64,000 bases of DNA, from assembly GCF_014196915.1 (NCBI RefSeq), contig NZ_JACIEP010000013.1, forward strand, positions 1 to 64,000, read 5' to 3'. Positions within the stretch are counted from its first letter, which is position 1; each line of letters starts with the position of its first letter. Shown here piece by piece: positions 1,369-41,242 of the stretch. Below the pieces are notes generated by a model that saw nothing but the letters and a program-made list of their open reading frames with translations, had not been told where the DNA came from and ran no database searches. Origin of the DNA: Dysgonomonas hofstadii (GTDB lineage: Bacteria > Bacteroidota > Bacteroidia > Bacteroidales > Dysgonomonadaceae). Position numbers and translations under genes: made by a program.

Positions 1369-1625
1369 AGTTTGCCTCGCTTTCGCCTCACTCATGGCTT
1401 TGCCTGGTGGCATTGGTCCGCAGTGCGGGGTACCTGGTCAGGTGAAATGGGCGTGAAACCAAATACTGTTTGAGCCACAGGCGAGTTTATTTGGTTTAGC
1501 CCGTGAGCCTGTAACGGGTCGCACGAAGGACGAGCCACCAAAGCGTTTTTGGTTCCTTTTGGGGATTTGGCCAAAAAGGGACACAAGCAATCTTCGATTG
1601 CGCGTAGTATAGGAAAATTAAACAA
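1369..1625. repeat. Partial copy of the structured repeat (R1)
   Basis: Right-hand part of the repeat family, clearest over 1396-1607, ending in GATTGCGCGTAG. It keeps the GTTCCTTTTGG (1552-1562) / CCAAAAAGGGAC (1571-1582) hairpin. Between GTGAAA and TTTAGC it carries a 36-bp cassette (1459-1494, CCAAATA...TATTTGG) that in the full copies is found inverted in the left half. The left half and left terminus are missing; instead a piece like the F module (TTTGCCTCGCTTTCGCC) abuts it. Open frames across it (for example 1392-1625 minus) are low-complexity by-products of the repeat. Confidence 0.85.
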
Positions 1626-3519: not shown

Positions 3520-4080
3520 AGTTATGAGTTATAAATTATGCCAATCAGTAGTTGAAATTATTATGATTGTAAAAAATAATCATTCTATTATACTAACGCG
3601 CCTATCGGCTTGTTTTCTCAACTTTTTTCTTGATAAAAAAGTTGCAAAAAATCAAGGCTGCAGCCCTCGCAGACCCACCATCTGCTCAGCGGCTAAACCA
3701 AATAAACTCGCCTTCGGCTCAAACAGAATTTGGTTTCACACCGCTTTCGCAGGGTGGGTACCCCTGCTGCGGACATGATGCCGGAGTCGCAATACGACGA
3801 CAAGGATTACCCTGCCTTGGGGTGGCTTCGCCCGGTGGCATTAAGCCGAAGTGCAGGGCACCTGTCAGGCGAAAGGGGCGTGAAATGGAAAGCGTCCGCA
3901 GGACAATCTTTCCATTTAGCCCGTGAGCCTGTAACGGGTCGCACGGAGGGTGAGCCACCAAAGAGTTTTTGGTTCCTTTTGGGGATTTGGCCAAAAGGGA
4001 CACAAGCAATCTCCGATTGCGCGTAGCACAAAAAATTGAACAATTAAATCTAACTGCTGATTCGCATGAATTATGATTTC
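3520..4080. repeat. Structured repeat, full copy (R2)
   Basis: Core 3578-4045 (468 bp) bounded by degenerate inverted termini AATCATTCTATT and AATTGAACAATT. Outer arms are A (left, TTATGCCAATCAGTAGTTG) and inverted F-type (right, AAATCTAACTGCTGATTCGC). Internal hairpins are CAACTTTTTT/AAAAAAGTTG near 3627-3652, TGGAAAG/CTTTCCA at 3886-3914 with inner GTCC/GGAC, and GTTCCTTTTGG/CCAAAAGGGAC at 3972-4001. It lies between the MutS-like gene and the DUF2851 gene. Several frames stay open for up to 98 codons on both strands, but they shift between copies and overlap, so I do not call them genes. Confidence 0.9.
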
Positions 4081-30204: not shown

Positions 30205-30795
30205 TTTTTTGAAGAACTTTATCTATGTATGGAAAGAGTTATGAATTATGCCAATCAGTAGTTGAAATTATTATGATTGTAAAAAATAATCGTTCTATTT
30301 TACTAACGCGCCCTTCGGGTTTGTTTTTCATTTTGGCATTGCCCAAAACGAAACAAAAGGCTAGTGCTTCGTTCCCCGCCGACCTGTCATCGGCTTGCCG
30401 GCTAAACCAAATAAACTCGCCTGCGGCTCAGACAGTATTTGGTTTCACGCTGTCTTCACCGGACAAGTGCCCGTCGTAGGAACCTATGCACGGAAAGCTG
30501 GCGCACGACAGGGAATTACCCTGCCTTGAGGTGGCTTTGCCCGGTGGCATTAAGCCGTAGTGCGGGGCACCCGTCAGGCGAGAGGGGCGTGAAATGGGAA
30601 GCGTCCGCAGGACAATCTTTCCATTTAGCTCCTGAGCCTGTAACGGGTCGCATGCAGGATGAGCCACCAAAGCATTTTTGGTTCCTTTTGCGGCTTTGGG
30701 CAAAAGGAACACAAGCAATCTTCGATTGCGCGTAGTAAAAAACAATAGAACGATTAAATCTAACTACTGATCCGCATGAGTTATAAGTTATGAAT
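30205..30795. repeat. Structured repeat, full copy (R3)
   Basis: Core 30288-30755 (468 bp) with perfect 12-bp inverted ends AATCGTTCTATT / AATAGAACGATT. Left arm A (TTATGCCAATCAGTAGTTG); right arm inverted F-type (AAATCTAACTACTGATCCGC). Inner ends CTAACGCGC and GCGCGTAG also pair. Cassettes are CCAAATA...TATTTGG (30407-30442) and TGGGAAG...CTTTCCA; the right-hand hairpin is GTTCCTTTTGC (30681-30691) / GCAAAAGGAAC (30700-30710). Open frames on both strands (for example 30428-30745 minus) are shadows of the repeat. Confidence 0.92.
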
Positions 30796-30817
30796 GGAGG
30801 GTATAAAATGTGCAGAT

Positions 30818-31000
30818 GTGTCAGGTTTTAACAAAACAAGTTTCTCGCAAAGACGCAGAGACGCAAAGAATGAAATTGTTAACTGTTCACTGAATGAAGT
30901 GTCAGGTTTTGGTTGAAAAAGATGCAAAAGTGTAACTTTTGTAACTTTTTGCCTCGCCTTCGCTTCGGCGATTGCTAATTGTCAGATTTTCTATTATCAA
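30818..31000. repeat. Flank-type repeat module (F2, inverted)
   Basis: Reverse complement of the module left of R4 and of part of 112-280. It contains GTGTCAGGTTT at 30818 and 30899, the GCAAAGACGCAGAGACGCAAAG block and GGTTGAAAAAGATGCAAAAG. The end reads TTTGCCTCGCCTTCGCTTCGG. It joins R3 to the cyclophilin gene region. Confidence 0.8.
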
Positions 31001-40264: not shown

Positions 40265-40500
40265 AATAAAAACCTGACAGATTGTTCGGTTAACAGTCAA
40301 GAAAAAAGTTACAAAAGTTACACTTTTGCATCTTTTTCAACCAAAATCTGACACTTCATTCAGTGAACAGTCAACAGTGAACAGTTAACAATTTCATTCT
40401 TTGCGTCTCTGCGTCTTTGCGAGAAACTTGTTTTGTTAAAACCTGACACTTCTGACAGATTATCCCGCAAAAACGTTATCCCCCAAAATATTATTAGATA
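40265..40500. repeat. Flank-type repeat module (F3)
   Basis: Same module as F1 and the inverted F2. It includes AAAACCTGACAGATTGTTC (40268-), TTACACTTTTGCATC, the block TTTGCGTCTCTGCGTCTTTGCG and AAACCTGACAC at 40439-40449. It leads straight into the left arm of R4. Confidence 0.8.
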
Positions 40501-41085
40501 TTTCAATTTATAATTCATAACTCATGCGAATCAGTAGTTAGATTTAATCGTTCTATTGTACTAACGCACCCTTCGGGTTTGTTTTTCATTTTGGCATTGC
40601 CCAAAACGAAACAAAAGGCTAGTGCTTTGTTCCCCGCCGACCTGTCATCGGCTTGCCGGCTAAACCAAATAAACTCGCCTGCGGCTCAGACAGTATTTGG
40701 TTTCACGCCGTCTTCACCGGACAGGTGGCCCGTCGTAGGAACCTATGCACGGAAAGCTGGCGCACGACAGGAAATTACCCTGCCTTGAGGTGGCTTCGCC
40801 CGGTGGCATTTGTCCGTAGTGCTGGGCACCCGTCAGGTGAGAGGGGCGTGACATGGGAAGCGTCCACAGGACAATCTTTCCATTTAGCCCATGAGCCTGT
40901 AACGGGTAGCATGTAGGGTGAGCCACCAAAGACTTTTTGCATTCTTTTGGGGCTTTTGCCAAAAGAATGACAAGCAATCTTCGATTGCACGTAGTAAAAA
41001 ACAATAGAACGATTATTTTTTACAATCATAATAATTTCAAATACTGATTGGCATAATTCATAACTCTTTCCATACATAGATAAAG
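40501..41085. repeat. Structured repeat, full copy with flipped core (R4)
   Basis: Core 40546-41014 (469 bp) bounded by AATCGTTCTATT / AATAGAACGATT. The core runs in the same direction as in R2 and R3, but the arms are exchanged: F-type on the left, inverted A on the right (CAATCATAATAATTTCAA, then TTTCCATACATAGATAAAG). Right-hand hairpin CATTCTTTTGG (40940-40950) / CCAAAAGAATG (40959-40969). Open frames across it are repeat shadows. Confidence 0.92.
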
Positions 41086-41242
41086 TTTCTCAATTTTGAT
41101 CAACTATCATTTTGTTTTATCAAACCCTGCTGAAAGAATATTAAATAAACATGATATAAAACAAATGTAAAAATTTCCAAACAATTCTTATCTTTTTATC
41201 GTTCATATATAAAAATGTTTCGTCTTATAAAACAGTATTTTC

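Follow-up and report, generated by a model that had tools for sequence, protein, structure and literature searches.

Intergenic repeats of Dysgonomonas hofstadii as an IS982-type MITE family whose mirrored cargo fold probably acts as DNA

A family of intergenic repeats in Dysgonomonas hofstadii is best described as MITEs with IS982-like ends, presumably mobilised by an IS982-type enzyme, whose cargo is a convergent pair of structured half-domains not derived from an insertion sequence (IS). We consider it probable that the fold of this cargo acts as DNA and that the half-domain is an older mobile or recombinogenic repeat, captured by the IS982-like elements of the genus. The analysis started from a stretch of 64,000 nucleotides (contig NZ_JACIEP010000013.1, positions 1 to 64,000), referred to as the window, and was extended to the remaining genome (5.04 Mb in 44 contigs), to relatives and to more distant bacteria and phages.

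Results

Organization of the repeats in the window

The window holds three full copies of the element, each consisting of a core between two arms. Copy 1 (530 bp, 3538..4067, plus strand) and copy 2 (530 bp, 30248..30777, plus strand) follow the order arm A, core, arm B, with the flanks AAATT/GAATT and GAATT/GAGTT, respectively. Copy 3 (531 bp, 40524..41054, minus strand) is flanked by AACTC/AATTC and has its arms reversed around a plus-strand core, meaning that the core is flipped relative to the arms. Each of the three flank pairs matches at four of five positions. The left terminal inverted repeat (TIR) of copy 2 (30248..30269, plus strand), recognised by pattern match, is the same TIR that occurs on IS982-like elements, and the right TIR (30756-30777, minus strand) is its counterpart. 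The first-pass annotation had reported three cores of 468, 468 and 469 bp between genes, and all three are present with these positions, lengths and intergenic placement. The AATCGTTCTATT-type inverted ends of 12 bp that it described exist as well, but they are internal, with the true termini lying 21-40 bp further out. Outside these 12-bp ends, two arm types, A and B, are found, both beginning with ATGCSAATCAGTAGTT.

Alignment of a core's two ends revealed that each core is composed of two mirrored half-domains. A covariance model of the half-domain, R1, detects seven of them in the window, one of which belonged to its training set. Copy 1 contains a left half-domain at 3586..3764 (plus strand, E 1.1e-25) and a mirrored right one at 3855..4036 (minus strand, E 2e-33). 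In copy 2, the left half-domain, with hp1, hp2, P4, P5 and hp3, occupies 30296..30473 (plus strand, E 8.5e-33) and the mirrored right one 30564..30745 (minus strand, E 6.7e-34). The corresponding halves of copy 3 lie at 40552..40731 (plus strand, E 6e-34) and 40823..41004 (minus strand, E 3.6e-31), the latter being one of the 57 training sequences of R1. A lone half-domain at 1427..1617 (minus strand, E 3.2e-33) precedes a degenerate TIR that ends near 1671; this region, previously recorded as a partial copy at 1396-1607, is indeed related to the repeats but represents one complete half-domain. By BLAST, the cores of copies 2 and 3 are 93% similar, and copy 1 is 77-82% similar to both. The parts described earlier as strongly differing correspond to hairpin modules swapped between copies.

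Together with adjoining stretches, copies 2 and 3 form long inverted repeats (30209-30990 and 40303-41093) around a 10-kb gene block, with pieces of 74-91 nt that are 97-99% complementary. This arrangement possibly marks an inversion site or a segmental duplication.

A MITE family with 5-bp target duplications

The repeat family lies far above chance in its own genome, where copy 2 with its arms (561 bp query) has at least 79 matching pieces, with 40 of 99 first-look candidates scored. Allowing up to three mismatches, the TIR pattern occurs 93 times, compared to two occurrences of a reversed control. Pairing of the ends yielded 38 pairs, two of them alternative pairings of the same elements, and thus 36 distinct elements. 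The near-constant length noted at first holds for the commonest form, with 21 of the 36 measuring 500-575 bp, but not for the family as a whole, which spans 56-1,048 bp. The elements tend to occupy AT-rich target duplications of 5 bp. Exact 5-bp flanking duplications accompany 12 of the 38 end pairs, where 1.35 are expected from mismatched pairs; the remaining 26 pairs lack an exact 5-bp duplication, and exact duplications of 6-10 bp are absent from all 38. No open reading frame of at least 100 amino acids spans the joined flanks in 35 of the 36 TIR-bounded elements.

Orthologous intergenic gaps are much shorter in relatives. Between the mutS-like gene and the DUF2851 gene, 616 bp are found here and 5-341 bp in the 20 genus relatives in which both genes could be placed. 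The gap from recO to the mutS-like gene measures 405 bp here and 4-65 bp in 19 of 20 relatives; one relative has a gap of 366 bp (locus L232, genome G018). The TIR pattern is present in 16 of 25 genomes of the genus, our own included, and occurs with matching flanks in relatives as well. In plasmid sequences, no match to the repeat was found. Two element starts lie within about 165 bases of contig ends (contigs C19 and C7), and the draft assembly may therefore undercount copies.

Several neighbouring structures were seen alongside the family. In one copy, a different element is apparently nested in arm A (L073, 1528-1871). Loci L128, L133 and L139 have similar but degenerate TIRs, with five mismatches at one end, and other cargo, namely TGACA-type repeats, GCAAAGACGC-type repeats and a CTCGCCTTCGCTTCGGCGAT module. 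At L168, in a relative, the TIR is adjoined by CGTCATTGCGAG...GAAGCAATCC, which we take to be a CGTC-tagged REP-like sequence.

IS982-like partner elements in relatives

An unpaired TIR in a relative (L164) led to an IS982-type transposase. The best NCBIfam match of this protein is transpos_IS982, at 83.8 bits against a cut-off of 130, and it reaches 25 bits against Pfam DDE_Tnp_1_3, whose cut-off is 27. Some match to the transposase exists in 30 of 101 genomes of the family. Six loci in relatives carry both TIRs and measure 1,040-1,068 bp; the transposase frame is open in L173-L176 and contains stops in L178 and L179. Three of the six (L173, L174 and L178) are flanked by exact 5-bp duplications, L175 matches at four of five positions, and L176 and L179 match at fewer.

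As the same TIRs bound these IS982-like elements of about 1,065 bp, the classification of the repeats as an IS982-type MITE family is well supported by sequence comparison. The 36 distinct TIR-bounded elements are short, non-coding and multicopy, they share ATGCSAATCAGTAGTT with the IS982-like IS of relatives, and the duplication length is 5 bp in both. An IS982-type DDE transposase would accordingly be the candidate that moved the MITEs. The best match to the transposase in the own genome is only 31% identical, so no close transposase for the MITEs was found in their own assembly. A survey of open reading frames inward of unpaired TIRs at 26 loci led us to reject an autonomous copy in the own genome. 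Ten open reading frames beside unpaired TIRs (two own, eight from relatives) resembled host genes when compared to Pfam, with the exception of the L164 transposase.

The cargo does not follow from these partners. R1 found no half-domain in any of 11 IS982-like IS loci, and the cargo is for this reason taken not to be IS-derived. Core variants at L017, L021, L024 and L027 have GGTC-type termini and no IS982-like arms, showing that the cargo can be bounded by different ends. Deletion derivatives are frequent among published MITEs, and the ends of the present elements clearly come from an IS982-like IS, as would be expected if the core were the decayed interior of such an element. Given the blank IS loci, the core paralogues that lack these TIRs and the core relatives that a phylum-wide scan places far outside this family, we hold such an ordinary internal-deletion origin to be highly improbable.

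A conserved fold of the half-domain

The half-domain comprises about 180-220 nt. Its parts are two hairpins, the small hp1 and the long pyrimidine/purine hp2, together with a bulged stem, P4/P5, that encloses a further hairpin (hp3), whose cap reads AACTCGC...GCTCARACAG in many copies. In the loci of relatives, all 37 pairs of neighbouring half-domains with a spacing below 400 bp are convergent. At one locus (L270, 1501-2443), a small gene separates a half-domain from a mirrored match that is weak (E 0.009), so that the two are not side by side.

For the alignment, 138 distinct half-domains were reduced by removing two with N, keeping 60 below 90% identity and discarding three with long insertions, which left 57. 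In these, 83.1% of the cells of a named 53-pair structure are paired, compared to 68.0% after shuffling and 34-52% for slid versions, over which the structure has an advantage from having been drawn on one sequence of the alignment. Doubly changed cells number 436 against 143.9 in shuffled alignments, and none of 500 shuffles reached this value. RNAalifold, run without a given structure, predicts 26 pairs, 22 of them with double changes, and recovers hp2, P4, P5 and hp3. A conserved fold with massive Watson-Crick compensation is thus strongly supported. Correction of palindromes during replication could also explain Watson-Crick pairs without selection.

Furthermore, the loop of hp2 is often complementary to the tail directly after the hairpin, which corresponds to an H-type pseudoknot. 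The loop/tail pairs include CTTGAC/GTCAAG, CTTGAT/ATCAAG, CTTGAA/TTCAAG, TTCGCC/GGCGA, GTCGCC/GGCGAC, GTGTG/CACAC and GTGCG/CGCAC. Among the matches listed for the hp3 motif, hp2 was recognised in 62 of 129 occurrences with enough upstream sequence, giving 48 distinct hairpins that were picked blind to loop-tail pairing. Within this set, 41 of the 48 have a loop-tail match of at least 4 bp (swapped mean 24.0, maximum 33) and 26 one of at least 5 bp (swapped mean 11.2, maximum 19). Two earlier counts, both on sets with wrong hairpins mixed in, gave a mean longest match of 4.49 against 3.33 shuffled (maximum 3.70) in the genus alignment and of 4.33 against 3.55 swapped (maximum 3.92). Where the loop is of CATTGC type, as it is in the left half of both copy 2 and copy 3, the pseudoknot is weak, with 3-4 contiguous bp. 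Judged from these predicted pairings, the pseudoknot appears to be kept through changes of its letters. Ahead of the pseudoknot strand, the A-rich linker is often a partial repeat of the 3' arm of hp2, for example with CCAAAAAAGG present twice; the 5' arm could possibly pair with either repeat copy, in the manner of a strand switch.

Action as DNA or as RNA

In an RNA fold, G-U pairs should be tolerated well above A-C. Across all helices of the genus alignment, 82 G-T pairs are found against 93 A-C mismatches, and in hp3 stems from many phyla, among the matches listed, 12 against 23. A-C exceeds G-T in hp2 (25 vs 4), outer hp3 (19 vs 7), P5 (6 vs 1) and P4 (28 vs 25), whereas G-T exceeds A-C in hp1 (27 vs 8) and inner hp3 (18 vs 7). 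Because G-T does not exceed A-C overall, action as DNA is favoured, and the half-domain probably works as a single-stranded or cruciform DNA hairpin. The excess of G-T in hp1 and inner hp3 is a reservation that slightly lowered our confidence.

Known RNA families were rejected as the identity of the repeat. No Rfam 15 family reaches its gathering threshold in the window, where a permissive mode gives two miRNA matches, both below threshold (E 0.017 and 4.5), and over 18 further loci only a TPP riboswitch and a tRNA were found. The first-pass annotation had called for a covariance model and an Rfam search, and it is the outcome of both, R1 from 57 half-domains and no matching Rfam 15 family, that is used here. 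A regulatory or trans-acting structured RNA that rides on the MITE, with its fold selected as RNA, would fit the extensive compensatory changes, the pseudoknot, whose A-rich linker resembles that of functional RNAs, the apical loop conserved across phyla and the G-T excess of hp1 and inner hp3. We nevertheless regard it as unlikely, in view of the overall G-T balance, the mirrored duplication that places the fold on both strands and the lack of an Rfam match. The initial suggestion was a MITE-like passenger, a structured RNA or both. TIRs, 5-bp duplications, the IS982-like partner and the much shorter orthologous gaps bear out its MITE part, and the conserved fold its structured part; the attribution to RNA is disfavoured on the same three grounds as above. 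The true termini, the inversions of the core, the build of the half-domain and its wide occurrence had escaped the first-pass annotation.

Core orientation and module exchange

Thirty elements were classified by core orientation, one of them an alternative pairing of another: 12 are A-core-B, eight B-core-A, five B-core-B and five undecided. On a tree of 11 near-full cores, at least three switches of orientation fall on well-supported branches. With both orientations present and interspersed on the tree, a phase-variable switch could be envisaged, in which a site-specific recombinase acting at AATCGTTCTATT flips the core and changes the expression of neighbours. The five B-core-B mosaics suggest general recombination instead, and we consider such a switch very unlikely. 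Recombination of hairpins at the DNA level would fit both the core inversions and the swaps of hairpin modules.

Distribution beyond the genus

R1 matched 25 of 392 genomes of the phylum, our own included and other orders and classes among them, under strict filters and with six candidates scored per genome. One of these genomes carries two convergent halves, 517 bp across. The exact hp3 motif was found in at least 114 stretches of genome_contigs, where we estimate about 0.5 by chance. Among the matches listed, 116 distinct flanked occurrences comprise 51 from Pseudomonadota, 33 from Bacteroidota, 17 from Bacillota and 15 from others or unassigned. An hp3 stem of at least 6 bp is formed in 102 of these 116 (swapped-flank mean 16.3, maximum 26), a P5 of at least 7 bp in 68 (mean 9.1, maximum 16) and both in 62 (mean 2.9, maximum 10). 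The 62 occurrences with both stems among the matches listed stem from Pseudomonadota (42), Bacteroidota (13), Bacillota (5), Myxococcota (1) and Thermodesulfobacteriota (1), and 50 of them share a 3'-side bulge of 4-5 nt. Named isolates in this set of matches listed include Polaromonas glacialis and species of Undibacterium and Noviherbaspirillum. Among 80 matches listed, the Bacillota titles are metagenome bins, as are many matches outside Bacteroidota. R1 itself is weak outside Bacteroidota, with a best E of 0.002 (38 of at least 114 loci scored).

Close pairs of hp3 motifs among the matches listed, not all of them independent as some loci share one genome or genus, are convergent in 16 cases, direct in 11 and divergent in none. 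Where two close motifs are opposed in orientation, they are always convergent. Neighbourhoods of half-domains across genera share only common house-keeping gene types and spurious frames. Gene-context classes based on open reading frames were discarded as unreliable, since spurious wrong-strand frames had been counted.

The convergent arrangement recalls REPINs, which likewise are inverted pairs of hairpin units, and Y1 genes are available, with two in the own genome and Y1 found in 9 of 14 tested genomes. A REP/REPIN-like repeat moved on single-stranded DNA by a Y1 (RAYT) transposase is still quite unlikely in our estimation. Of 28 Y1 loci found, 26 were scanned and none carries a half-domain, which led us to reject a Y1/RAYT origin; no half-domain lies within the 12-kb regions surrounding the two Y1 genes of our own genome either, and a DDE enzyme is indicated here by the TIRs and the 5-bp duplications. 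Neither these Y1 loci nor the gene neighbourhoods yielded a mover of the half-domain.

The exact hp2 type-1 module was found in two of 295 genomes evenly sampled from the order, both being the sampled members of the genus. In 50,697 phage records, five Microviridae were found to carry a hairpin of the hp2 type whose loop and tail are the same. In four of them the hairpin lies clear of annotated genes, and in the fifth it sits at the margin of a hypothetical one. In these phages (L202 1-110, MT135430; L255-L258), the loop GCATTGC is followed by CAAAAGGCTAG or a close variant. The hp2 of copies 2 and 3 has, in their left halves, this same loop with a CAAAAGGCTAG-type tail. Three patterns of the Microviridae hairpin retrieved a single contig from viral_contigs; over 3,032 compared bases it is identical to L218, a copy from our own genome.

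Discussion

In the explanation that we prefer, IS982-like ends would let an IS982-type DDE transposase mobilise a non-autonomous element, whose insertion into an AT-rich target would generate a 5-bp duplication. The half-domain, probably an older mobile or recombinogenic repeat, would fold as single-stranded or cruciform DNA hairpin. The IS982-like elements of the genus may have captured a convergent pair and then amplified it, and hairpin recombination would swap hairpin modules as well as flip the core inside its 12-bp inverted ends.

Our view of the half-domain's function and of its original mover is inferential. We tentatively propose, as a possibility that we ourselves hold to be rather doubtful, that the half-domain belongs to an unclassified, bacteria-wide class of selfish DNA acting as folded single strands. 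By analogy with IS608, the hp2 loop might serve as a guide that pairs with the tail and sets the site of cleavage or strand transfer, the convergent partner might be the other end, and an unknown host or phage factor might move it; in this genus, IS982-like elements would have captured the pair as a MITE. The ends of IS200/IS605 elements such as IS608 are recognised as single-stranded DNA through hairpins and base-pairing of neighbouring single-stranded segments. The half-domain differs in that no HUH enzyme was found beside it and in the target duplications seen in this genus.

Related repeats have been described in Bacteroidota. MITECca01 of Cardinium, about 240 bp and derived from the IS982-family element ISCca4 (PMC9769881), is likewise non-autonomous, non-coding and multicopy, with IS982-family inverted ends. 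In contrast to this derivative of a parental IS, the present elements are about 530 bp long and carry an unrelated, structured cargo of two-fold symmetry, and the genome yielded no close parental IS. BrickBuilt, MITE239 and MITE464/PgRS of Porphyromonas gingivalis are MITEs of Bacteroidales too, and BrickBuilt is also intergenic with a trapped foreign repeat, but they are described with IS5-type TIRs and a tandem minisatellite cargo, and the accessible part of that account mentions no conserved fold (PMC4596501). As far as the accessible parts of these two reports go, IS982-derived MITEs in Bacteroidota (PMC9769881) and a MITE with a trapped foreign repeat (PMC4596501) are thus already in print. 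REP, BIME and REPIN sequences are palindromic repeats of several phyla, often in opposite orientation, with hairpins of 20-40 bp and GTAG or CGTC tags, those with CGTC lacking a known transposase in the portion of the source available (PMC3733652); here, the units are of 180-220 nt, with several helices and a loop-tail pseudoknot. The half-domain module was not found in the literature searched, which covers few subscription papers, and sequence-string matches returned one unrelated primer paper only.

If our explanation is right, MITEs can carry an unrelated, wider-spread module, and one unannotated sequence class would link intergenic repeats of distant phyla. It would be unusual for a complex pseudoknotted fold to be kept at the DNA level, mostly with no tolerance of G-U, while nearly the whole sequence turned over. 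A concrete model and testable loci would also be at hand for the question of how such repeats are moved. On the local scale, four puzzling intergenic blocks of the D. hofstadii genome would be explained.
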